Positions 11,326 to 24,898 of a stretch of DNA of 59,917 nucleotides are shown here, piece by piece. Location of the stretch: contig CADEDY010000007.1 of NCBI GenBank assembly GCA_902826215.1, forward strand, positions 87,045-146,961, written 5' to 3'. The DNA comes from an uncultured Bacteroidota bacterium (GTDB lineage: Bacteria; Bacteroidota; Bacteroidia; Flavobacteriales_F; PHOS-HE28). The translations under genes and the position numbers were made by a program. Within the stretch, counting starts at the first letter, position 1. Every line of letters begins with the position of its first letter. The notes under the pieces are model-generated. The model saw only the letters and a list, made by a program, of their open reading frames with translations. It had not been told where the DNA came from and searched no databases.

Positions 11326-11598
11326 GGTCCTTGCAGGGATAAGCGCCGCGAAGTTGGCGTCCCCCTAAGGCTAGGCCGATGCAGTTCTCCACAAGGAATT
11401 GAACATTTCGACCAGTCGCCCCGCTGACCCGATGGGGCATCCGATCCGCCCCGCGATCGATCAGAATGACCTCGGAATGGACGGAAGTTGGACAACTCGA
11501 TCGTTGAAAAAGCTCATCGGATCGACTTTCTCGCGTTCGACCCGGCGTACTTGGAATGCCGCGCAACCAGTTGACTGTCGCAGACAATTCACGTGGTG
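11326..11598. other. Intergenic region, no gene seen
   Basis: About 270 bases between the start of the beta-helix gene and tRNA-Arg. Short frames exist but none has convincing protein character. It presumably carries the promoter of the beta-helix gene, though I found no clear TAnnTTTG element. Confidence 0.4.
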
Positions 11599-11672
<74 letters not shown>

Positions 11673-11697
11673 GATCAATGGTCACAAAGGTGCCACG

Positions 11698-11730
11698 AAA
11701 AAAGGCCAACCTGATGGCTGGCCTTTCACT
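11698..11730 (-). terminator. Terminator hairpin after tRNA-Pro
   Basis: On the minus strand, arms AAAGGCCA and TGGCCTTT flank a roughly 10-nt loop, followed by a run of T residues (the A-run at 11698-11703 on the plus strand). It lies between tRNA-Pro and tRNA-Arg, so tRNA-Arg may rely on read-through or its own promoter. Confidence 0.7.
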
Positions 11731-11733
11731 TCG

Positions 11734-11807
11734 TCGGGGCGGCCAGATTCGAACTGACGACCTCCTGCTCCCAAAGCAGGCGCGATACCGGGCTACGCTA
11801 CGCCCCG
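11734..11807 (-). tRNA. tRNA-Pro (anticodon TGG)
   Basis: Minus-strand cloverleaf: acceptor CGGGGCG/CGCCCCG, anticodon stem CCTGC/GCAGG around loop TTTGGGA (anticodon TGG), and T arm containing GTTCGAATC. The C1-G72 pair typical of bacterial tRNA-Pro is present. CCA is not encoded. Confidence 0.95.
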
Positions 11808-11967
11808 AACGGGCCGCAAAGGAACGGTAATTCTTGACATGTACGCACTTGGAGAGTAGAATCTCCTGTGAAAAGCAGTTGCAGCAAGGCCAGAACAGGG
11901 ATTGCCCGAGGACGGGCTATCCCCTTTGGGGGGAGTTGCAGAGCCAAAGCCTGCTCGCTCCGCTCGG

Positions 11968-12029
11968 GGCTTTGTTCGTTCCCAAGATCCTTGCAAGCCA
12001 GCTTGCAGATCTTGAAAACGAACAAAGCC
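11968..12029. repeat. Long inverted repeat between tRNA-Ser and tRNA-Pro
   Basis: The arm at 11968-11998 (GGCTTTGTTCGTT, then CAAGATC and GCAAGC) is matched by its reverse complement at 12001-12029 with a few mismatches. This predicts a roughly 60-nt hairpin with a 13-bp perfect base. Its outer arm (12023-12029) overlaps the terminator at 12023-12046, so the two RNA structures would exclude each other. Confidence 0.75.
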
Positions 12030-12046
12030 GCCTTTCGGCGGCTTTG
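12023..12046 (-). terminator. Rho-independent terminator after tRNA-Ser
   Basis: Minus strand: CAAAGCCGCC, tetraloop GAAA, GGCGGCTTTG, then TTCGTTTTC. This is a perfect 10-bp stem just downstream of tRNA-Ser. The structure is symmetrical, but the T-rich tail favours the minus strand. Confidence 0.8.
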
Positions 12047-12051
12047 ACTCT

Positions 12052-12141
<90 letters not shown>

Positions 12142-14214: not shown

Positions 14215-16566
14215 TCAGAATCGCAGCGTGTACTGCAAGACCGGTAGTATGCTGAGCTGTGATCCGCCTTCGATGGCTTGATCCTGTGAGTTGTAATACC
14301 GATAGACCACGGTCTTCGCGTTGAGGATGTTCTGCACATCGGCCTTGAACTCGTGGCTCACCTTGGGTCGACCGACGCGGTAGCTCACGACGGCATCCAC
14401 CTTGTGGACCGGGAGTCCCTTAACGCTCATCGGTGCTCCACCTTCCTTTTCCGTTCCCGTAACAATGCTTGCTTCCAGATCGATCGGGGTATACCACTGA
14501 CCACCCTGCACAGAGTACCGGAAGCCCGTCATCAAGATGCGGTCTTTGCCTGCTGGTCCAAGCTTCCACTCTCTGCCAGCGAGGGCATTGGCAACCACGC
14601 CCAAGTTGAACCTCGAGTTGTGCCAAACGCCATCCAACGGTTTGTACTTCGACTCGCTGAAAGAGCTGGTGACCATGAAGTGGTAGCCGCGCGTGAAGAA
14701 CTTCTCGACGCTCAGCTCCACGCCCGTATTGTAGCCTGTTCCCTTGTTCACCAAGGGCGTTGTGGTGAACCAACCCGACCAGTTGTTGATCGTGAACGCA
14801 CTGTTCGGATCATTCTCCACGGGCAGGTCATACAGGTACTGGTAGTAAGCCTCCGCTTTGAACTGAATGTCCTCAGCGAGTTTCTGCTCGTAGCCGAATA
14901 CAGCATGGGCTGCTCGAGTGAGTCCGAGTTCCTGGTTCGGACGGAAAGTGTGCCCTTGCTCGTCGGTGTCCTGTGCCAAGTACGTCATGAGGGCTTCGGT
15001 CTTCGAGTGCAGACCCAAAGCGAACATGAACGCGCGGTTCGGCTTGGCTTGGTAGCGCAGCGCCAAACGGGGCTCCACGCTCAAGGCGTCATTCAGGTCG
15101 TAGTAGAGCACGTGCGCACCACCGGTCAAGGTCCATGCCTCGTTCCAACGCCATTTCCAACTGCTGAACGCCTGTACCGTGTTGGCCGAACCGCTTTGAT
15201 CAAGGACGGTATTGTACACGAAGGTCTCCGTATCCCATTCCGTCGAAGCCAATCGGTAACGCTCCTTCGAGACGATCAACCCGGAACGCATCTTCAGGCG
15301 GTTGTTGATCCGCGTGTTCAACGTTGTACTTCCCCTCGCGGTCCACTTCGCCAGACCAGCGTCCGCCCGTAGTTCAAGCCCCTCCTCACCCGGCAGCGGC
15401 GATTCGCGATAGTCCGTGGAACTGCCATTTCCACTCACCGAGATCGTCGAGTAGAGAAAGCTGTTGTCGCCCAAAGTGCGCGTATGCGTAAGGCCGATGA
15501 CACCCATCCGTGAACCAAAATCAGCGCGACTGAACAGCGTGTCCCCATCGTCGCTCATATCCTCCGAAATGATGTGACTGCGACCACCAACGCCGAACAA
15601 GGAGAAAGTTCCTTTGGTCGATGTTGGCACTTTCAGCTTGAAGGCTGCATCCGTGTACTTCGGAACACCATCGTAGTCCACGATGCCAGCGCCATCCAAA
15701 AGGGCGAGCGTGCTGTAGCGATAGTTCACCAAGTAGGAACCACCGTCCACACCAGGCAATGGTCCTTCGGCGGTGAGATCCGTTCCGAGTACACCAGCTT
15801 TCAATGTGTATTCGCGTTTGCTGTCGTTGCCATCGCGAAGGCGCATGTCGAATACCGCGCTGGTGACATTGCCGTATTCTGCGGGAAAGGCCCCCGTGTA
15901 GAAATCCGAGTTGTCGATCACATCGCTGTTAAGCACGTTGATCGGACCTCCCGTGCTGCCATCGTCAGCGAAGTGGTTCGGGTTAGGGATCTCCATGCCT
16001 TCCAATCGCCACAGCACGCCCTTCGGTGAATTGCCACGAACCACAATGGTATTGTCGCCGGAAGGGTCACTGGCAACACCAGGGAAGGTGCTCACCATAC
16101 GAGCAGGATCGTTGATACCACCAGCGATACGCGACGTTTCCTCCACGCTGATGCGTCTTGCGCTGACCATGGCCATGTCGTTGCGTACTTCGCCCTTGCG
16201 ATCCGGTGCCTTCACTTCGAATTCCTTCAACTGGCTTACCGATTCCTGTAAACGCACCTCCAGCACTAATTCCTTGGCGCTGGTCAGCAGCAGGTTGCTC
16301 ATTCGTTGCTCTTCGTAGCCGAGCATCCGCACCTGCAGATCCAATCGACCGGTCGGCACTTCTGCGATCGAAAACCGGCCATCCGGATCGGCAGTAGCCC
16401 CTTTGATCGGATCCGATCCCACAACAACGACCGTTGCTCCGATCAAGGGTTGACGAGTATCCGCATCAACGACCGAGCCGCGCACGGTCTGTAAGTAGCC
16501 TTGGGCATTGCTCACACGGGTGAAGCAGATGAGACCCAGAACGAAGAGGAGAGAACGGGTGTACAT
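14215..16566 (-). CDS. TonB-dependent receptor, no STN domain
   Basis: A 783-residue outer-membrane receptor: signal peptide (about 1-18), carboxypeptidase-regulatory-like domain (about 25-105, GSVVDADTRQPLIGATVVV), plug (about 140-260, NTIVVRGNSPKGVLWRLEG and YTGAFPAEYGNVTSAVFDM), and a beta-barrel ending in aromatic LQYTLRF. The ATG at 16566 gives a clean signal peptide; the frame stays open upstream into the next gene but without protein character. The substrate is unknown. It is the last gene of the sigma/FecR locus and has its own candidate ECF promoter. It lacks the N-terminal STN signalling domain found in FecA-type transducers. Confidence 0.88.
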   Translation of the reverse strand: MYTRSLLFVLGLICFTRVSNAQGYLQTVRGSVVDADTRQPLIGATVVVVGSDPIKGATADPDGRFSIAEVPTGRLDLQVRMLGYEEQRMSNLLLTSAKELVLEVRLQESVSQLKEFEVKAPDRKGEVRNDMAMVSARRISVEETSRIAGGINDPARMVSTFPGVASDPSGDNTIVVRGNSPKGVLWRLEGMEIPNPNHFADDGSTGGPINVLNSDVIDNSDFYTGAFPAEYGNVTSAVFDMRLRDGNDSKREYTLKAGVLGTDLTAEGPLPGVDGGSYLVNYRYSTLALLDGAGIVDYDGVPKYTDAAFKLKVPTSTKGTFSLFGVGGRSHIISEDMSDDGDTLFSRADFGSRMGVIGLTHTRTLGDNSFLYSTISVSGNGSSTDYRESPLPGEEGLELRADAGLAKWTARGSTTLNTRINNRLKMRSGLIVSKERYRLASTEWDTETFVYNTVLDQSGSANTVQAFSSWKWRWNEAWTLTGGAHVLYYDLNDALSVEPRLALRYQAKPNRAFMFALGLHSKTEALMTYLAQDTDEQGHTFRPNQELGLTRAAHAVFGYEQKLAEDIQFKAEAYYQYLYDLPVENDPNSAFTINNWSGWFTTTPLVNKGTGYNTGVELSVEKFFTRGYHFMVTSSFSESKYKPLDGVWHNSRFNLGVVANALAGREWKLGPAGKDRILMTGFRYSVQGGQWYTPIDLEASIVTGTEKEGGAPMSVKGLPVHKVDAVVSYRVGRPKVSHEFKADVQNILNAKTVVYRYYNSQDQAIEGGSQLSILPVLQYTLRF

Positions 16567-16572
16567 GTCGTT

Positions 16573-16597
16573 GTTTGTTGTCCTTATGACAACCAAC
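16573..16597. promoter_or_regulatory. Dyad overlapping the receptor promoter
   Basis: Arms GTTTGTTGTC and GACAACCAAC (9 of 10 paired) flank CTTAT. The dyad covers the -10 motif and the expected start site of the receptor gene. It could be an operator or a leader hairpin. The sister promoter of fecR lacks it. Confidence 0.45.
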
Positions 16598-16613
16598 AGA
16601 TAGAACACCCCTA
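16585..16613 (-). promoter_or_regulatory. Candidate ECF-sigma promoter of the TonB receptor gene
   Basis: Minus strand: TAGGGGT, 12 nt, GGTTGTCATA, ending 18 nt before the start codon. The same two words at identical spacing precede fecR. From GGGGT to GTC the gap is 16 nt, usual for ECF promoters with a GTC-containing -10 element. Confidence 0.65.
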
Positions 16614-16676
16614 CTCCAACCAAAAAGAAATTGAACTCGGCCTTGGCGTTCCGTGGAGTCCCGGATAAGCGTGCAG

Positions 16677-18773
16677 CTAGAACTGTAGACCCAAGGAAGC
16701 CTTCCAACCGAACCAAGCGGAAAGCTGGGTGGTACCTGACATGGATCGCATAACAGGGGCCGACGGTGGCAGTTCGCTCAGGTAAGCACCAGTATCCGGA
16801 TCTCGCCAGTCCGAAGCCAACAGGTTGAACAGAGGCCCAGCGGAGATCACGAGAGCATCGGTCAGGCGTATGCCATAGCTCACGCTGAAGCGTCCGAGGA
16901 TATTCACCGCATCGATCCATTCGCGCTGCTCCACGATCTGCTCGCCCGTGAGGTCGATGTTCAAGAAGCCGACCTTACCGATGCGCGGTTGCGTTCCGAA
17001 GCCATAGAGAAAGCCCCAGCGCTGATCCGGAGCAACCGAGGGTGAATAGCCCAGGATGTTGTGGAAGCCGCGCGTTCCAGTGCGGAACTGGACGGATAAC
17101 GGCATCGCGTCATTCGTACTGAGATCGAAGCGGTGATACCCTTTCAACGATAGGGTTAGCAGACCCACTGCATTGCCAATGATGGTGTCGCTGATGTTGA
17201 GGATACCGAACTGCCCTCCTTCGCATCGCCGCGCGAAATTCACCACCCCGACCTGTCCACCCTTCGCCGTTCCACTTACCGCATTCAGCCCGAAGGTGAA
17301 CTGGCCACCGGTGATGGATCCCGCGTAGTTCAAACCGAAGCCGACCTGACCACCCTCCACTGAACCGGGTACGATGTTGGCACCGAAAGAGAATTGACCG
17401 CCAGTGGATGCACCCGCGTAGTTGAGCCCGAATCCTACTTGACCGCCACTGACCTCAAGCAATGCCACATTCGCACCGAATGACACTTGGCCACCACCCA
17501 CAACGCGCGCATAATTGGCTCCGAAACCGACCTGACCACCACCAACCGAATCACGAGCGACATTGACACCGGCAGCAATCTGGGCCCCAGAGACCGATCG
17601 CGCATAGTTCGCACCACCTGCGATCTGAGCCTTGCGCACTTGCTTGGGCGTCACATTCACGCCACCTGCGATCTGGATCCCATCCACGTTCTGCGTAGCC
17701 ACATTGCACGCACCAGCGATCTGCGTTCCACGCAGACCTCCTTTCACAACGTTCGCACCGCCTGCTATCTGCACGCCGCTCAAGGTGTCCCAGACGGTGT
17801 TTCCAAGACCCGCGAGTTGCAGGCCTTCCAAGGTGCCCATCGTGTGATTGATCGCACCAGCGATCTGCACGCCGCTTGTGTTGCGCCCGACCAAGTTGGT
17901 GAAGCCCGCCACTTGCAAGCCTTCCACGTTGTGGCTCTCGATGTTGGCTATTCCGCCCAACTCGAACCCTTCGAGCCCGCGCGAATAGCCTGCCAGAAGG
18001 TTGAACGAGAAATTGTTCACCACGGCACCAGCGATGTCGCCATTGGTACTCACATTCGGGATCAGCGACAATTGCCACATGCTCCTCTCTTCAAAGTCCA
18101 AGTTCTCAGCCAGTTCCATGCGCTGGTCGGAAACGAGCAAACGCGCCACACCGAGGTCCTCCACGCCGCAACGGTCGTGCAAACATATCGGTTCCATAGG
18201 GGTCACCACACTTCGCTTCCGCAGGGCCAATCGACCGAAGTTGCCATCGCGCCCTACGTACACGATCGTGTCGTGGTACTCCTTGCGCATCACCAGGATC
18301 GCTGTGCGCTCACGCTCGCCACTAAGATCCAACGTGAACGTTCCCAACGCATCGGTGGAAGCAGCATTCTTGCCGTCGACTTCGTGCACCGTGGCCATCA
18401 CTACAGGACCTTTCGTTACGGCATCGAACACCGCTCCAGCAATACTGAATCTCTTCCGTACACCGCTCTGACCGAGGAGGATGATGTGGTTGCCGGTCTC
18501 CTTCAATTCGAATCGAGGACCTACGACGGATACCAGCGCATTCTTCACCGTTCCGTTCACAGCCACCGAAACAACACTATCTCCATTTACGGCAGCTGCG
18601 TTGTAGCTCAACTTGAAATCACCTTCGCGGGCGATCAGCGCCAACGCTTCGGATAGTCGCACGTGAGCCGCATCCACGCGAACGGGACGTTGAAGAATGG
18701 ATTGTGCCAGCCCAGCGTGTGTAAGCAACCCACAACAGGCCAGAACGAGGATACGCTCAGCACCCTTCACCAT
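16677..18773 (-). CDS. STN-domain outer-membrane repeat protein
   Basis: A 698-residue exported protein. A signal peptide (about 1-24, ending GLAQ) is followed by a secretin/TonB short N-terminal (STN) domain (about 27-95, VRLSEALALIAREGDFKLSY) and a carboxypeptidase-regulatory-like domain (about 103-185). From about 266 to 548 come some 17 tandem 13-17-residue repeats with consensus GxQ(I/V)(A/G)GxxN. The end looks like a beta-rich membrane or surface domain closing in phenylalanine. I chose the ATG at 18773, which overlaps fecR by 17 nt; upstream in-frame starts would lengthen the signal peptide oddly. The STN domain is expected to contact FecR in the periplasm, so this may be the signal transducer of the locus. 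I recognise the repeat style but no known function. Confidence 0.8.
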   Translation of the reverse strand: MVKGAERILVLACCGLLTHAGLAQSILQRPVRVDAAHVRLSEALALIAREGDFKLSYNAAAVNGDSVVSVAVNGTVKNALVSVVGPRFELKETGNHIILLGQSGVRKRFSIAGAVFDAVTKGPVVMATVHEVDGKNAASTDALGTFTLDLSGERERTAILVMRKEYHDTIVYVGRDGNFGRLALRKRSVVTPMEPICLHDRCGVEDLGVARLLVSDQRMELAENLDFEERSMWQLSLIPNVSTNGDIAGAVVNNFSFNLLAGYSRGLEGFELGGIANIESHNVEGLQVAGFTNLVGRNTSGVQIAGAINHTMGTLEGLQLAGLGNTVWDTLSGVQIAGGANVVKGGLRGTQIAGACNVATQNVDGIQIAGGVNVTPKQVRKAQIAGGANYARSVSGAQIAAGVNVARDSVGGGQVGFGANYARVVGGGQVSFGANVALLEVSGGQVGFGLNYAGASTGGQFSFGANIVPGSVEGGQVGFGLNYAGSITGGQFTFGLNAVSGTAKGGQVGVVNFARRCEGGQFGILNISDTIIGNAVGLLTLSLKGYHRFDLSTNDAMPLSVQFRTGTRGFHNILGYSPSVAPDQRWGFLYGFGTQPRIGKVGFLNIDLTGEQIVEQREWIDAVNILGRFSVSYGIRLTDALVISAGPLFNLLASDWRDPDTGAYLSELPPSAPVMRSMSGTTQLSAWFGWKASLGLQF
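17130..17975 (-). repeat. Tandem GxQ(I/V)xGxxN repeats within the STN protein
   Basis: About 17 coding repeats of 13-17 codons. Early units read GVQIAGxxN, later ones GGQVGFGxN, as if two sub-families arose by successive duplication. The regular Gly/Asn spacing suggests a beta-solenoid or beta-hairpin array. Confidence 0.85.
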
Positions 18774-19728
18774 CCAGCACATAGGTTCCGGGGGCGACTT
18801 CGGTGAGGCTAAGGCCATAGGTATCGGCGATCACACGGAGGATATAGGTGATCGGTTCATCCTCGAAGGTGGCCGTCAAACGGCAGTTCCGCAATGCATC
18901 CTTCGCCAGTTCGATGCGTACCGGGAAAAGATGCTGCAACTGAGCCACGACGTCCGTCATCGAAGCCTCCTGGAATTGAATGATGCGATCGCCGTAGACC
19001 ACTGCCGGTGGCGCAGGCATGCGTTCCAGAACGTGGGCCGTTTTGTTGTATCGTGCATATCCACCGGCATTCAGGACCACGCTGTCGCCCTCCACCTCCA
19101 CGCGCACCTTGCCATGGCGAACACGGACCAGCACGCTGGAACTGGTATCGAAGGCACTCACTTCGAATGCGGTGCCGAGCACAGTAACAGTGACATCGTC
19201 CGTTTCCACCACGAAGGGTCGCTCCACATCGCGCTGCACTTCGAAGTATGCTTCTCCAGCAAGAGCCACATGCCGGTCCTGTGTCATGCGGACATCAGCG
19301 CGTGAACCGGGTGAAAGCACGATGTGGCTGCTATCCGGCAGAATGGTGCGCACGAATTCATGACTCGCCATCAGGTGTTCGGGTTGTTGGTTGAACAAAA
19401 AGCGAACACCCATGAAGAGACCGATCAACAGCGCAGCAGCAACCGCCACACGCCGTAACACAGCTGAGTTGCGTTGCGGAACGATCCGCTTCACCCCATC
19501 GGCTGCATCGATACGCGCCTGCACAGCAACCCAAGCACGGTCCACATCCACTTCGGGTGCGGATGCACCTGCGCTCAACGCCCAGATGCCGCGCAAAGCC
19601 TCCAGTTCCTGCGCATGGGAAGGGTCGGCCGCACCCCATACCTCAATGGTCTGGCGCTCTGCAGCATCCGACTCTCCAGCCAAGTATCGGCCGAGTTGCT
19701 CGCTTGTGATATGTGGTCCTTCGTTCAC
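18757..19728 (-). CDS. fecR: FecR-family anti-sigma factor
   Basis: A 323-residue protein: cytoplasmic N-terminal region (1-88) able to bind sigma, one membrane helix near 89-110 (RRVAVAAALLIGLFMGVRFLF), a periplasmic FecR domain (about 125-225, SRADVRMTQDRHVALAGEAYFEV), and a C-terminal DUF4974/STN-like module (about 245-320). FecR proteins hold or activate their ECF sigma factor in response to an outer-membrane transducer. The start codon is GTG at 19728; an in-frame TGA lies a few codons upstream, so no longer start is possible. It follows the sigma gene and overlaps the STN-protein gene. Confidence 0.9.
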   Translation of the reverse strand: MNEGPHITSEQLGRYLAGESDAAERQTIEVWGAADPSHAQELEALRGIWALSAGASAPEVDVDRAWVAVQARIDAADGVKRIVPQRNSAVLRRVAVAAALLIGLFMGVRFLFNQQPEHLMASHEFVRTILPDSSHIVLSPGSRADVRMTQDRHVALAGEAYFEVQRDVERPFVVETDDVTVTVLGTAFEVSAFDTSSSVLVRVRHGKVRVEVEGDSVVLNAGGYARYNKTAHVLERMPAPPAVVYGDRIIQFQEASMTDVVAQLQHLFPVRIELAKDALRNCRLTATFEDEPITYILRVIADTYGLSLTEVAPGTYVLDGEGC

Positions 19729-19741
19729 GTGTATTCAATGC

Positions 19742-19770
19742 TATGACAACCCACTACCCCAATACCCCTA
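19742..19770 (-). promoter_or_regulatory. Candidate ECF-sigma promoter of fecR
   Basis: Minus strand: TAGGGGT (its TAG is the sigma gene stop codon), 12 nt, GGTTGTCATA, ending 13 nt before the GTG start. It matches the element before the receptor gene in both words and spacing. Confidence 0.65.
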
Positions 19771-20331
19771 TCCTCCTTTGTTCCACCACCACATCACCCA
19801 CGCGATCACCACCGCCGGCATCAGGTCCGACAGGTCTTGTCGCAAATACTTCAGAGCTTTTCCCATCTGGTTCTCCACGGTCTTCACCGAGATACCTAAA
19901 CGCTCCGCGATCTCGTGGTACTTCAATCCCTCGTGCCTGCTCAGTTTGAAGACCTTACGCCGCTCTTCCGGCAAAGCTTCTATCGCTGCATGCACCCGTG
20001 CAGCACGTTCCGTATGCTCGTCCTCACCGCGCTCCTCCGCTGCTGGTCGATCATCCACCTCTTCGTTCAATACGCGCATGCGACCTTCCACTTTTACTGC
20101 GTTGAGGCACCGGTTGCGCACCGAAGTGAAGAGGTACGACTTCAACGAAGTGCTCACCTTCGTCTTCTCACGATCCTGCCATAGGCGCACGAAAAGGTCC
20201 TGCACCAGATCCTCTGCGTTGTCGCCGTCCTTGACATACTGCCTCGCAAAGGCACACAACGGCCCATAGTGCACCCGGAACAAGGCTTCAAAAGCATTGC
20301 GATCTCCAGCTGCTATGGGAGCGAAATCCAA
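19768..20331 (-). CDS. ECF RNA polymerase sigma-70 factor
   Basis: A 187-residue sigma factor with only regions 2 and 4. Region 2 (about 10-80) holds YGPLCAFARQYVKDGDNAEDLVQDLFVRLW; region 4 (about 120-175) holds ALPEERRKVFKLSRHEGLKYHEIAERLGISVKTVENQ, the DNA-binding helix-turn-helix. The order sigma, FecR, transducer, receptor is that of FecI-type cell-surface signalling. The stop codon TAG is shared with the -35 word of the fecR promoter. No copy of the ECF motif is seen upstream of this gene, so it may be expressed from another promoter. Confidence 0.93.
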   Translation of the reverse strand: MDFAPIAAGDRNAFEALFRVHYGPLCAFARQYVKDGDNAEDLVQDLFVRLWQDREKTKVSTSLKSYLFTSVRNRCLNAVKVEGRMRVLNEEVDDRPAAEERGEDEHTERAARVHAAIEALPEERRKVFKLSRHEGLKYHEIAERLGISVKTVENQMGKALKYLRQDLSDLMPAVVIAWVMWWWNKGG

Positions 20332-20450: not shown

Positions 20451-23400
20451 TCACCGCAGGATATGCAAGTATCCCTTCTGCATTTCGGGTGCGTTGGTGC
20501 CGCGATCCAACTGCAACACGAAATAATAGACACCGGTAGCGAGCGGCTCACCCGTGCTTCCGTGGTTGCCGGCAAAGGCCTTGCGCTTGGGGTCAGCTGA
20601 CCAGACAACCGCACCGTACCGGTTGAATACCTCCAACGATGCACTGATGAAATCACCTGAGATCACTTGCCAGACATCGTTCACGCCATCGCCGTTGGGA
20701 GTAATGATGTTCGGCGGCACCACGTCGCAGTGTCTTAGGGTAAGACCGATCTGCGCGCTGGTGTTGCAACCGTTCGCGTCCAACACCTGCAGGGTGTAAA
20801 CGCCTTCCTCTTGGACAAGGATCGAATCGGAGCTGGATCCCGTGCTCCAAAGCGGATCGGTGTAGCCCTCCGGCATCACCAGCAAGAACGTCGCCCCGAT
20901 GCAGAATGTCGTATCAGGTCCCAAAGTGAATTGGATCGGACCGTTGACGATCAAAGAGTGCGACAGACCCATGGAACTGCACATTCCGTTGGTTGCGACC
21001 ACGCTATACACACCCGCATCGTTCATTTCCGTGGGATCCAGAACGATGGTGGTTCCGCTCTGCACGCCACTCGGGGTGGTCCAAGTAAATGTTGTCCCCG
21101 CTTCATCCATGACCGATAGGGTCACCGTTTCTCCTACACATGTACTGTCCGGAGCAGCGATCACGGGCACCACCGGAAGTGCATTAACCTGGCCGAAGAC
21201 GGGCTGCGGATCACCCAGGCAAGCGCCATCCACTTGCTGGACATAGACCACGTGTGGCCCGACCAATGCAGTGCCAAGGGATAGGCTCGTCCCCATCCCC
21301 AGTTCTTGGGTGGTGTTCGCATCGGAATACCATGTGATGGTTCCCGATCCTGTTGCCGCGAAGATCAACTCCTCACCAGCGCATACAGCAGGTCCGTTGG
21401 TGACGAGCGGCTGTTCCACGGGTATCAAACCTACTTGAACGGCGAGTGTATCGGTACAGCCGAAGAAGTCGCTGGCCAAAAGCGTGTACGTACCTGGAGC
21501 GCTCACGGTGAGTACAGGCCCTACTACCTGTTCGGGTTCCCACAAGTAGAACGCTTGGCCGCCTGTGGCTTGCAGGAGAAGGGAAGAACCTTCGCAGAAA
21601 TCGTACGGCCCGGGATCGAGTAAACTCGCGCTGGCCGTGCTTCCATAGATGATCGTGGACACCGTGGTGACGATGTTGCACGCGGTGACCGAACAGGAAT
21701 AGGCACCCGGCTGATCCACCACCTGAACGATGGAATTGCCACTGAGCGGGGCCGCCCAGACCAAACTGGCAGAGCCGGTGGTGACCACTTGCAATCCGGC
21801 GGTCTCGTTGGGTTCGCACAGCACGCCATCGGGCAGCACGTTCAAATAGGGTGTCGCATAATCGGTGATCAGGATCGGATCCGAGACCACGCCGCATCCA
21901 AGCAGGTCCACCATCTCGAGGTAGTACTCGCCCGGCTGTGTGGTGAAAATGCTGTCGTTCTGTTCGGGGATCGGCCCCAATGGACCGTACCACTGATAGG
22001 ATTGACCGGGTGTATCGGAATACACGATCGCTGTCGAGTTCGGGCAGATGATAGCATCCTCGGGGAAATTGCCGAGGGTGGGACGCGGGTAGGTGCCTAT
22101 GGTGTGTGTGGCAGTGGCGATCGCGAAGCATCCGTCACTCTCAGCGTATCCATGGAAATAGGAGGTCCCAGGACCTGTGACCAAAGCTCCGGTCGGCAAC
22201 AATGAGACCAGTCCGCTGTAGTAGGTCGCTGTTGAATCACAGCCCACACACGTCGCTACCAATACAGCTGTATCGCTCGGACAAAGAATCGTTGGTCCCG
22301 TAAGTGAAACAATGGGCGGTTGCACAGTGATCGGTATCACATAGATGCTATCCGTTCGAGTGAAGAAAAGGCTATCGGTCCCGCAGGGTGCATTCGTCAA
22401 AAGAACATCCACGGTAACATAGCGCCAACCGGGACCGTTACCTCCGGGAACAGTGCAATACACCTCCCCGGTCGTATAGGCCCAACTGCCAGTGCATCGC
22501 TGGAACATGCGAATTCCGTAGGGTAGACCAACAACATTTCCATCCAGCAGCAAGGAAACCATGCCATTCACGGAAATACTCTGGTACGGACAAACGGTCA
22601 CCGTGTCATTCAGGTCAGAATCCTGAGGGAACTCCAGCTCATATAGTGCTTCGAGCGGTGGCAGCGGTCCGTTGGGCTGAAGGATGACATGAACCGTATT
22701 GCTTCGAGCACAACCTTCGGGGGTGAGCACTGTGGCCGTGTAATAGCCCGAGGTCAAGGCTTGTACAGAATCGTTCGGGACCGTGTCCGCATAGTTCCAG
22801 AACACTTGGTTCGCAGGGTCCACCCCTGTTGCCCAAAGCCATGGTTGGATCGGCAAGCAGCGAACGATGGTGCTGGTATTAAGGGCTTCCACATTCACCC
22901 CTTGGTCATCACTGATCAGCGGTGGGGCAGGAAATGGGTTCACAATGACATACAGGGAATCGGCGCTGTTCCAACAGCCAGCTTGAGAAGTCAACTGCGC
23001 CGAATACCAACCCGTGTTCTGAACGAGCAAGTTGCTTGTGGTGCTGCCATCCTGCCACACGTAATTCATGATGGGACCAGCAGTTCTCGACGAGTTGGAG
23101 CCGGACCACGTCGAACCATGCGTATTCACCACAAGGTTCACTTCATCACATACCACCAATGTGTCCAAGCCATGAACACCTTGGAAGTAATCGTTGACAC
23201 TGTAGGCCGTAATTGCAACTTCGAGTGTCGAGCGATCACATGGTCCATCTTCCCGGATGAAGAAGTCATACGGTTGCCGACCTGCGACATATCCTTTCGA
23301 GAGGAAGGCATCCTTCAACCCTCGTTCTTCCAACGCGACCTGAACACCATACTCCGTATCACCACAATAGTATCCCGGTCCGTAGGCTGGAAAGAAACTA

Positions 23401-24776
23401 CCCACCTCGGGTTCAGCGATCATCTCCCAGTCGCTCGGAAAGACCAAGATCTCACTGAAAGAACCATTGAACAGCAACTCGCCATCGGGCAAGTACTGCA
23501 AACCTCCGGTGGTCTTCGCTCCTGCCCCACCGAATTGCTGTGCTTCCTTGTACGCGAAATTGTTCAGATGAAGGCGCGCGATGTAGAGATCGTGCTGACC
23601 CGTGGCTAGGAATGTGCCCGTGCCGTACAACGCACTGAGATCAGTGAGTTGACAAGCGAACCGACCGTACACGGCCACCTCATCGTTGGAAACAGCCACC
23701 GCACGCGTAGTGATCTCATTCGCCGACCCCCACGTGTGGTATTGGGTCAATTCGCCATCCAAGGTCACATCCAAGAGAAAAGACGATCGCGGGGCGGTGG
23801 CCGAGAAGATATCCGGTTGACTGTCCTGGAAGATCACCGTCCCTTGGAGGTCGCCAACAAGGAAGAGCCTGTTGCCTTCAACGAGCAGTAGATCGAAGAC
23901 CTGATTGTAGGTCCCCCCGCCGAAGACCCGGAACCACTCCTCCGTGCCACTCGAGCTGTAGCGCATCAGGAATGCCGCGCTGTACATCGCATTGGTGTAC
24001 GTCAGATCGAAGGTGATGGTATCCGAGAACTGACCCGTGAGGTAGATGTTACCTGCCTCGTCGTGTTCCACATCCATGGCCCGATCGGCGAACTCCGCAG
24101 CACCATGCTTGAGCCATCCCGGAGTGCCATCACCAGCGTATGTCTGCAGAAAGATGTCGACACTGGGTTCATCCGTGTCAGGATCGATCACACTTGTCAG
24201 CGTTCCGCCATCGAATGTGGCCGTTCCCCTGAATTCACCGGCCACCGCTATGCTCCCATCCGATCCGACGGACACCCCGTTCGGTTGATCCACACCCTCT
24301 CCACCACCGCCCTGCCTGACCCAGTTGACGGCGCCAGTCAAGGCTTCCATGGACACCACGAAGACATCTTGTGTGTTGTTCTGCGAGGTGATCATCGTGC
24401 CACCGAAGTTGGCCGTGCTCATGAACTGGCCGACGACGACCAACGCGCCGTTCGGTCCCAATTCCAATGCAATGCCGCGATCCAGTCCCGGTCCACCGAA
24501 GTGTGTTGACCAGATAAGTCCGCCGGATGGATCGAACTTCGCCACAACAGCATCCAAGCTGCCATACGTGGTCATGGTGGAGGTTGCCCCGAAGGTGATC
24601 ACCCCTCCGAACTCACCGGTCACATAGGAGTTACCAAGCGCATCGACGACCAGATCAGTGAAGGAATCATTACTGGGACCGCCCACACCTTTTGCCCAGT
24701 ACTGTGCTTCACCCGCGAAAGGCAGGAGGATGGACAATAAGACACCTAACACTCCGCTGAAACGCAGCACCCTCAT
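20451..24776 (-). CDS. T9SS type B surface protein with propeller repeats and Ig-like domains
   Basis: A 1441-residue exported protein. A signal peptide (1-25, AGEAQ) is followed by SBBP-type beta-propeller repeats (about 27-460, D-x-x-GNSYVTGEFGG, FGGPGLDRGIALELGPNG). A long series of Ig/PKD-like domains (about 530-1340, C-x-G motifs such as FCEGSSLLLQATGG) leads to a C-terminal gliding-motility type sorting domain (NIITPNGDGVNDVWQVIS to GVYYFVLQL). The ATG at 24776 is preferred over an in-frame TTG 9 nt upstream. It is probably secreted by T9SS and attached to the cell surface, as an adhesin-like or structural protein. No catalytic domain is visible. Confidence 0.87.
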   Translation of the reverse strand: MRVLRFSGVLGVLLSILLPFAGEAQYWAKGVGGPSNDSFTDLVVDALGNSYVTGEFGGVITFGATSTMTTYGSLDAVVAKFDPSGGLIWSTHFGGPGLDRGIALELGPNGALVVVGQFMSTANFGGTMITSQNNTQDVFVVSMEALTGAVNWVRQGGGGEGVDQPNGVSVGSDGSIAVAGEFRGTATFDGGTLTSVIDPDTDEPSVDIFLQTYAGDGTPGWLKHGAAEFADRAMDVEHDEAGNIYLTGQFSDTITFDLTYTNAMYSAAFLMRYSSSGTEEWFRVFGGGTYNQVFDLLLVEGNRLFLVGDLQGTVIFQDSQPDIFSATAPRSSFLLDVTLDGELTQYHTWGSANEITTRAVAVSNDEVAVYGRFACQLTDLSALYGTGTFLATGQHDLYIARLHLNNFAYKEAQQFGGAGAKTTGGLQYLPDGELLFNGSFSEILVFPSDWEMIAEPEVGSFFPAYGPGYYCGDTEYGVQVALEERGLKDAFLSKGYVAGRQPYDFFIREDGPCDRSTLEVAITAYSVNDYFQGVHGLDTLVVCDEVNLVVNTHGSTWSGSNSSRTAGPIMNYVWQDGSTTSNLLVQNTGWYSAQLTSQAGCWNSADSLYVIVNPFPAPPLISDDQGVNVEALNTSTIVRCLPIQPWLWATGVDPANQVFWNYADTVPNDSVQALTSGYYTATVLTPEGCARSNTVHVILQPNGPLPPLEALYELEFPQDSDLNDTVTVCPYQSISVNGMVSLLLDGNVVGLPYGIRMFQRCTGSWAYTTGEVYCTVPGGNGPGWRYVTVDVLLTNAPCGTDSLFFTRTDSIYVIPITVQPPIVSLTGPTILCPSDTAVLVATCVGCDSTATYYSGLVSLLPTGALVTGPGTSYFHGYAESDGCFAIATATHTIGTYPRPTLGNFPEDAIICPNSTAIVYSDTPGQSYQWYGPLGPIPEQNDSIFTTQPGEYYLEMVDLLGCGVVSDPILITDYATPYLNVLPDGVLCEPNETAGLQVVTTGSASLVWAAPLSGNSIVQVVDQPGAYSCSVTACNIVTTVSTIIYGSTASASLLDPGPYDFCEGSSLLLQATGGQAFYLWEPEQVVGPVLTVSAPGTYTLLASDFFGCTDTLAVQVGLIPVEQPLVTNGPAVCAGEELIFAATGSGTITWYSDANTTQELGMGTSLSLGTALVGPHVVYVQQVDGACLGDPQPVFGQVNALPVVPVIAAPDSTCVGETVTLSVMDEAGTTFTWTTPSGVQSGTTIVLDPTEMNDAGVYSVVATNGMCSSMGLSHSLIVNGPIQFTLGPDTTFCIGATFLLVMPEGYTDPLWSTGSSSDSILVQEEGVYTLQVLDANGCNTSAQIGLTLRHCDVVPPNIITPNGDGVNDVWQVISGDFISASLEVFNRYGAVVWSADPKRKAFAGNHGSTGEPLATGVYYFVLQLDRGTNAPEMQKGYLHILR

Positions 24777-24898
24777 CACTACCAAGATAGGTTGTGTTCG
24801 TCAAACGCTGCCTGAATGACGAACTATTGCATGATCCACCATCCACAACCCATATCTGAGATCATGGAGCGTGGGAATGTCCTAGCCAGAAGAACGGG

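Follow-up and report, generated by a model that had tools for sequence, protein, structure and literature searches.

The locus and its predicted STN-bearing rod

We analyzed a stretch of 59,917 nucleotides, hereafter the window, from contig CADEDY010000007.1 of an uncultured Bacteroidota bacterium (assembly GCA_902826215.1). On its minus strand, genes for an extracytoplasmic function (ECF) sigma factor, a FecR-type anti-sigma factor, a 698-residue protein and a TonB-dependent receptor follow each other in this order (Table 1). The initial annotation had noticed that the receptor has no STN domain, the domain by which receptors of the FecA type contact FecR, and had placed an STN domain on the separate protein adjoining FecR. 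This layout is borne out by our analysis, and the separate protein, termed here the rod protein, travels with FecR across genomes. What is new is the STN carrier itself, a predicted rod and barrel, together with its wide spread and the likely role of the receptor as output.

Table 1. Features of the signaling locus (positions in the window)
Feature	Position	Strand	Basis
ECF sigma factor gene, 187 aa	19768..20331	-	TIGR02985, Sigma70_r2 and r4_2 matches
Promoter-like motif AGGGGTAT-N13-TGTC, 5′ of fecR, overlapping the sigma stop codon	19745..19769	-	exact match, sequence read
fecR, anti-sigma factor, FecR and STN-like FecR_C domains	18757..19728	-	domain matches
Rod protein gene (STN, NTE, solenoid, barrel), 698 aa, sharing 17 bases with the end of fecR	16677..18773	-	open reading frame, structure model, relatives
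STN domain of rod protein, residues 26-101	18471..18698	-	fold matches to PupB, PupR complex and FecA; PF07660 in relatives
CarboxypepD_reg / SusC NTE-type domain of rod protein, residues 107-190	18204..18455	-	
Beta-solenoid rod, about 18 coils, residues 256-543	17145..18008	-	
8-stranded outer-membrane barrel ending in Phe, residues 545-698	16680..17141	-	
Promoter-like motif AGGGGTGT-N13-TGTC, 5′ of receptor gene	16588..16612	-	exact match, sequence read
TonB-dependent receptor, NTE and Plug, without STN, likely regulated output	14215..16566	-	domain matches

As the fecR and rod genes overlap by 17 bases and only 39 bases separate sigma from fecR, the three genes likely form an operon. The sigma factor matches the Bacteroidota-type model TIGR02985 with 167.9 bits (cut-off 126.4), and also Sigma70_r2 and r4_2. 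Its neighbor scores above the cut-offs for FecR (52.2 bits) and FecR_C (41.1 bits), its DUF4880 part remaining below (17.8 vs. 25). An ECF sigma gene thus lies beside a FecR-type anti-sigma gene, as in FecR-type cell-surface signaling.

The AlphaFold2 model of the rod protein (mean predicted local distance difference test score of 91) gives the domain order STN, SusC-type NTE domain, beta-solenoid of about 18 coils and 8-stranded OmpA-like barrel. In Pfam and NCBIfam searches with the window protein alone, neither the STN domain nor the repeats rise over the cut-off, and relatives and folds were needed to recognize them. PF07660 (STN) is found in 17 of 24 relatives, and in separate fold searches the STN region matches PupB, the PupR complex and FecA; no STN structure occurs among the 50 fold matches listed for the whole model. 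The predicted fold of a distant family member agrees with that of the window protein. Those close relatives of the window protein that are named stem from metagenome-assembled genomes (MAGs) of Flavobacteriales. The domain search finds no Plug domain in the STN-bearing protein, which has neither the plug nor the large barrel of a TonB-dependent receptor.

Two large receptors from our sample of the phylum carry STN, NTE and Plug in this order, with the same head as the rod protein. According to PMC7782687, NTE precedes STN in SusC proteins; both examples tested here have STN first. SusC-type transducers of this kind therefore share the head with the rod protein, which differs from them in having a solenoid and an 8-stranded barrel in place of plug and large barrel. 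The remainder resembles LA_2272 surface-repeat proteins: their repeat model (NCBIfam NF047436, cut-off 25) is exceeded in two of five relatives (34.0 and 44.1 bits) and narrowly missed in the other three (21.4, 24.7 and 23.8 bits), whereas the window protein stays below it at 18.5 bits, and the STN head and the link to fecR are not part of that model. The rod protein thus looks like a SusC-type head joined to a rod and barrel resembling LA_2272.

The repeats are predicted to form a periplasmic rod and not a surface repeat, because the barrel begins where that of OmpA does and the N-terminus of OmpA is periplasmic. Tandem Repeats Finder detects no DNA-level array in the coil region, so that the coils must be old or diverged. 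Solenoid length ranges from 150 to 352 residues in the 333 measurable of 350 sequences carrying all domains, a partly redundant pool of protein-search hits and open reading frames from the loci. A comparison with the window was made with the proteins of the protein search, 118 of 120 being measurable, the window's own counted. Length is equal in 52 (window included), shorter by 31 residues in 21 and by 62 in 31, longer by 30 or 31 in 7 and by 62 in another 7. Since the differences cluster at 31 and 62 residues, rod length alters by whole units, the unit being two coils. A ruler of fixed length, which we had considered, is weakened by the spread among relatives.

The receptor shows a signal-peptide-like stretch followed, from residue 27, by a CarboxypepD_reg domain. 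A hidden STN domain, which would have spoken against the layout proposed at the outset, was found neither by domain search nor with a profile of 35 aligned STN-NTE heads that was searched against the whole genome of origin (4.16 Mb, stated completeness 100%). A single full head match was obtained, the rod protein itself; the other 22 matches (to E 0.44), the receptor of the locus among them, begin at profile position 72, that is, with the NTE half. One further STN match in the genome, weak at 14.8 bits, lies in a frame resembling, by reading, an iron-type ATP-binding cassette permease, and was taken for chance. The genome has a single FecR match as well, at this locus. Because its only STN-NTE head sits on the rod protein, despite 20 plug matches, no FecA-type partner for this FecR is found in the genome.

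Occurrence of the locus in the genus and in other Bacteroidota

The rod protein is present in 23 of 35 genomes of the window's genus. FecR is found in all 23, versus none of the 12 genomes without rod protein. The FecR search covered 45 genus genomes, including those 35, and each of the 30 genomes with FecR holds exactly one match. Around 30 genus STN-solenoid genes, fecR lies within 300 bp in 29, and 28 have sigma, the misses (L039, L218) being at contig ends. In 24 of the 30 loci, a script located the receptor downstream of the rod gene at a distance of no more than 6 kb. Four of the six misses are near contig ends, one is the window, where the open reading frame call extended the receptor start, and in the last one (L046, genome G020) the receptor, still preceded by the promoter-like motif described below, is at a distance of about 13 kb. 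A receptor orthologue (at least 60% identity) occurs in 29 of the 30 FecR genomes vs. 4 of the 15 without a FecR match. These four are assemblies of 260 to 470 contigs; in one of them, G456, a rod gene does exist, preceded by a fecR that is truncated by the contig end. In G031 the motif is again present and no rod gene is found in the 3.6 kb upstream of the receptor. The receptor may hence stand at times without the rest of the locus.

From the 146 relatives that a scan of named genomes yielded, we retained the 80 best; the search patterns lie in the barrel and not in STN, and ranking by full-length score favors STN-bearing forms. These 80 loci are mostly from Cytophagales (Chryseolinea, Ohtaekwangia, Algoriphagus), a Fluviicola MAG being one of the exceptions, and the arrangement is therefore not special to the window. 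Seventy-eight of them could be counted (the open reading frame of L116 is split and L130 is cut). The search for the same gene order that had been proposed at the start recovers its first three genes practically always: fecR is directly upstream of the rod gene, within 300 bp, in 78 of 78 loci, and sigma in 77. The fourth gene is less constant. A receptor lies within 6 kb downstream in 37 loci; in 8 the sequence stops before that distance is reached, and 33 are long enough but contain none; in several receptor-less loci (L061, L069, L072) the next gene is convergent. As 33 of 78 distant loci have room yet lack the receptor, the core consists of three genes, sigma, fecR and rod, and is able to stand alone.

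The phylum sample comprised 395 genomes, 173 of them with some match at E≤1e-10, many of these being STN-NTE heads in frames near 1,100 residues. Forty of the best other places were read over about 6 kb on each side, less at contig ends. Among 16 STN-bearing relatives (four of these stretches also belong to the named set), fecR adjoins in 15 and sigma in 14. None of the 24 stretches with STN-less solenoid-barrel relatives contains fecR; in one, L192, there is a sigma gene on the other strand. The objection foreseen in the initial annotation, that homologues of the repeat protein might occur mostly without FecR and sigma genes, consequently applies to the STN-less form and not to the STN-bearing one.

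In 14 of the 78 named loci the STN-bearing form is joined by an STN-less rod paralogue, which consists of solenoid and barrel and has about 350 to 450 residues. Such a paralogue is also seen at L053, and at L053, L087, L109 and L114 it is downstream of the rod gene. It is possibly a partner or a decoy.

A promoter-like motif and its genes

Regions upstream of the receptor gene in genus genomes have in common the motif GGGGTA-N14-TGTC. Allowing A or G at the sixth base, 55 matches are present in 0.50 Mb of genus loci, vs. 2.4 in mononucleotide shuffles. All except one are at fecR, the receptor or a gene for a small predicted barrel of about 225 residues; two of these 54 lie 49 bases apart, so that one counts as a second hit, and the remaining match is inside a CHU_C gene. 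Counted by gene, the motif precedes fecR in 23 of 29 cases, the small barrel gene in 12 of 13 and the receptor in 17 of 26, and in no case the rod gene (0 of 30). Spacing 14 accounts for 52 sites, and every other spacing from 8 to 20 for at most 1. Seven of the nine receptor misses are in loci with a small barrel gene that the motif precedes, and in L229, one of these seven, a receptor site exists as well; four of the six fecR misses carry a one-base variant.

The genome of the window has four exact matches in its 4.16 Mb: at fecR, at the receptor, at an unlinked homologue of the small barrel gene (304 bits) and at a DUF6134 gene (43.3 bits, cut-off 27.9). In ten genus genomes we counted 13 exact matches, 11 of them in this locus, vs. 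1 for the reversed control, and both FecR-less genomes among the ten lack the exact motif. One stray site, in G010, is at the start of a gene that by reading resembles a fatty-acid hydroxylase; another, in G457, is on the opposite strand inside a large gene with immunoglobulin (Ig)-like character.

Other Bacteroidota were searched with the looser pattern GGGGT-N15-TGTC, and 157 matches were obtained in their loci, vs. 8.0 in shuffles. They fall before sigma (73), the receptor (23), STN-less rod paralogues (19), rod or fecR genes (3) and elsewhere (39). The motif precedes sigma in 63 of 79 named and 10 of 16 phylum-sample cases, and the receptor in 16 of 37 and 4 of 8; the corresponding figures are 0 of 78 and 1 of 17 for fecR, and 0 of 79 and 2 of 18 for the rod gene. 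Pair counting upstream of fecR in these Bacteroidota gave no motif of this kind, the top pairs being taken for coding sequence of the fecR start and the sigma end. A scan for sigma-70 promoters and terminators returned fewer sites than shuffles and was not used.

Judging by position and joint occurrence, GGGGTA-N14-TGTC is a putative promoter of this sigma factor. The earlier suggestion that the receptor is a regulated output gains support, since receptor gene and fecR are preceded by one and the same promoter-like motif. The site of the operon appears to have shifted in the window's genus, from a place in front of sigma to one in front of fecR; located there, it would draw the anti-sigma factor and its partner into a feedback loop. 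Of the 39 sites elsewhere, 22 precede DUF2807-like proteins (head GIN domain; confirmed by Pfam in 3 of 3 tested), as at L084, L086, L140 and other named loci, and these proteins are likely in the same regulon.

Thirteen genus loci (e.g., L033, L034, L049) have the small barrel gene in the vicinity of rod gene and receptor, L057 being the one without motif, and two of its proteins that were tested have no Pfam match. The unlinked copy in the window's own genome (L233) has its motif at C19:26484-26508.

Proposed signal path and its alternatives

We consider it probable that the rod protein replaces the FecA-type receptor, its STN tip acting on FecR to control the sigma factor, which in turn would transcribe fecR, the rod gene and the STN-less receptor gene. 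By analogy with known systems, the predicted STN tip of the rod would dock on the STN-like end of FecR. Binding of a transducer STN domain to FecR is extrapolated from the systems of PMC7186176 and PMC11637429; according to the former, the periplasmic end of PupR consists of a solenoid-like part and an STN domain, both needed to bind the STN domain of PupB, and the value given there for PupB/PupR binding is 0.69 uM. By extension from PupB/PupR and FoxA/FoxR, a changed contact could expose FecR to proteolysis and free the sigma factor, which would then act at GGGGTA-N14-TGTC sites. Input may reach the rod via the barrel loops or via the mechanics of the envelope. In the initial annotation the repeat protein was the sensor; its tie to FecR is upheld for the STN-bearing form, while the repeats themselves are predicted to be periplasmic, so that sensing of the outside would fall to the barrel or to something touching the rod. 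With no plug domain on the STN protein, signaling here would need no TonB.

With FecA/FecR/FecI-type systems (PupB/PupR, FoxA/FoxR) the locus shares an ECF sigma factor, a FecR with STN-like C-terminal domain, an outer-membrane partner with N-terminal STN and a receptor gene that is likely sigma-driven. It differs from them in that STN is on a predicted plug-less solenoid-barrel protein and the receptor is without STN. The nearest precedent is VreA of the Pseudomonas aeruginosa VreA/VreI/VreR (PUMA3) system, in which, too, STN belongs to a protein other than a TonB-dependent receptor and is accompanied by ECF sigma and anti-sigma factors (PMC2729926). VreA shows that not every STN protein is a receptor. 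It is a 23-kDa, mostly soluble protein with a modeled TolA/TonB-like C-terminal domain and no beta-barrel; the rod protein is predicted to end in an 8-stranded barrel instead.

Of the alternatives, the one that survives best, although we hold it to be unlikely, makes the rod protein a co-receptor: the TonB-dependent receptor would be the true sensor and touch the rod in the outer membrane, and the rod STN would pass a TonB-driven signal to FecR. In its favor are the 24 of 30 genus loci whose receptor gene is no farther than 6 kb downstream, and the co-occurrence of receptor orthologues with FecR (29/30 vs. 4/15, G456 with its rod gene being one of the four). It accords poorly with the 33 of 78 named loci that have room and no receptor within 6 kb, several with a convergent next gene, and with G020, whose distant receptor bears the motif as an output would.

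Still less probable, in our opinion, is that the rod protein, itself a target of sigma, has just a structural or adhesive role in the envelope, with the STN-NTE head as folding or anchoring module and FecR answering to something else. STN-less relatives with the same solenoid and barrel profile do occur without nearby fecR, and the STN-less paralogue of 14 of 78 named loci is often preceded by the motif (the 19 sites mentioned). However, fecR is tied to the STN-bearing form and not to the STN-less one, and no other STN-NTE head was found in the window's genome for FecR to use. That the barrel exports the solenoid to the cell surface is very improbable: a beta-helix followed by a C-terminal barrel has the likeness of type V secretion, but classical autotransporters have a 12-stranded C-terminal barrel against the 8 strands of the model, and contact with FecR requires the STN at the opposite end to lie in the periplasm.

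Several observations weigh against the proposed signal path. The predicted TM score of the window model is just 0.61, which leaves the relative placement of the domains unsure, and rod length varies between relatives over the range given above. At L183 the sequence read around the STN-bearing rod protein contains neither fecR nor sigma, the sole such case of 16 as regards fecR, and L184 has fecR without sigma. Among the 12 genus genomes without rod and FecR, 5 are below 90% complete; the genus genomes are related, so that joint losses represent few independent events; and the FecR search overlooked the cut-off fecR of a further genome, G456. Regarding the motif, it is not found before sigma (0 of 28) in the window's genus. 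If one mismatch is accepted, the window's genome has 12 sites vs. 10 for the reversed pattern, that is, no excess, and G002 and G010 have the locus with only variant motif sites in it.

Descriptions of FecR signaling treat it as belonging to TonB-dependent receptors. An entire branch appears here to have shifted STN onto a rod with a small barrel, which frees the receptor to be output only. Our literature searches retrieved no paper on an STN-solenoid partner of FecR, most subscription journals being outside their coverage, which is not proof of absence. The locus yields a testable regulon motif and a unit of three genes (sigma, fecR, rod) that in named species, e.g., Ohtaekwangia koreensis, stands without a nearby receptor and is suited to asking whether FecR works without TonB. 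As a speculation to which we give little credence so far, much of the Bacteroidota could possess a TonB-independent signaling in which a periplasmic rod, anchored in the outer membrane and adjustable in length by two-coil steps, presents an STN tip to the anti-sigma factor, the cell reading the state or spacing of its two membranes and remaking envelope proteins.

Directly upstream of sigma, and likewise in several relatives, a gene (20451-24785) encodes a protein with Ig and beta-propeller repeats and a CHU_C domain of type IX secretion. It was left out as a member of the locus, since the genome holds 55 CHU_C matches, 54 of them over the cut-off. On the minus strand, three tRNA genes (Arg, Pro, Ser) lie in a row at 11598-12141.

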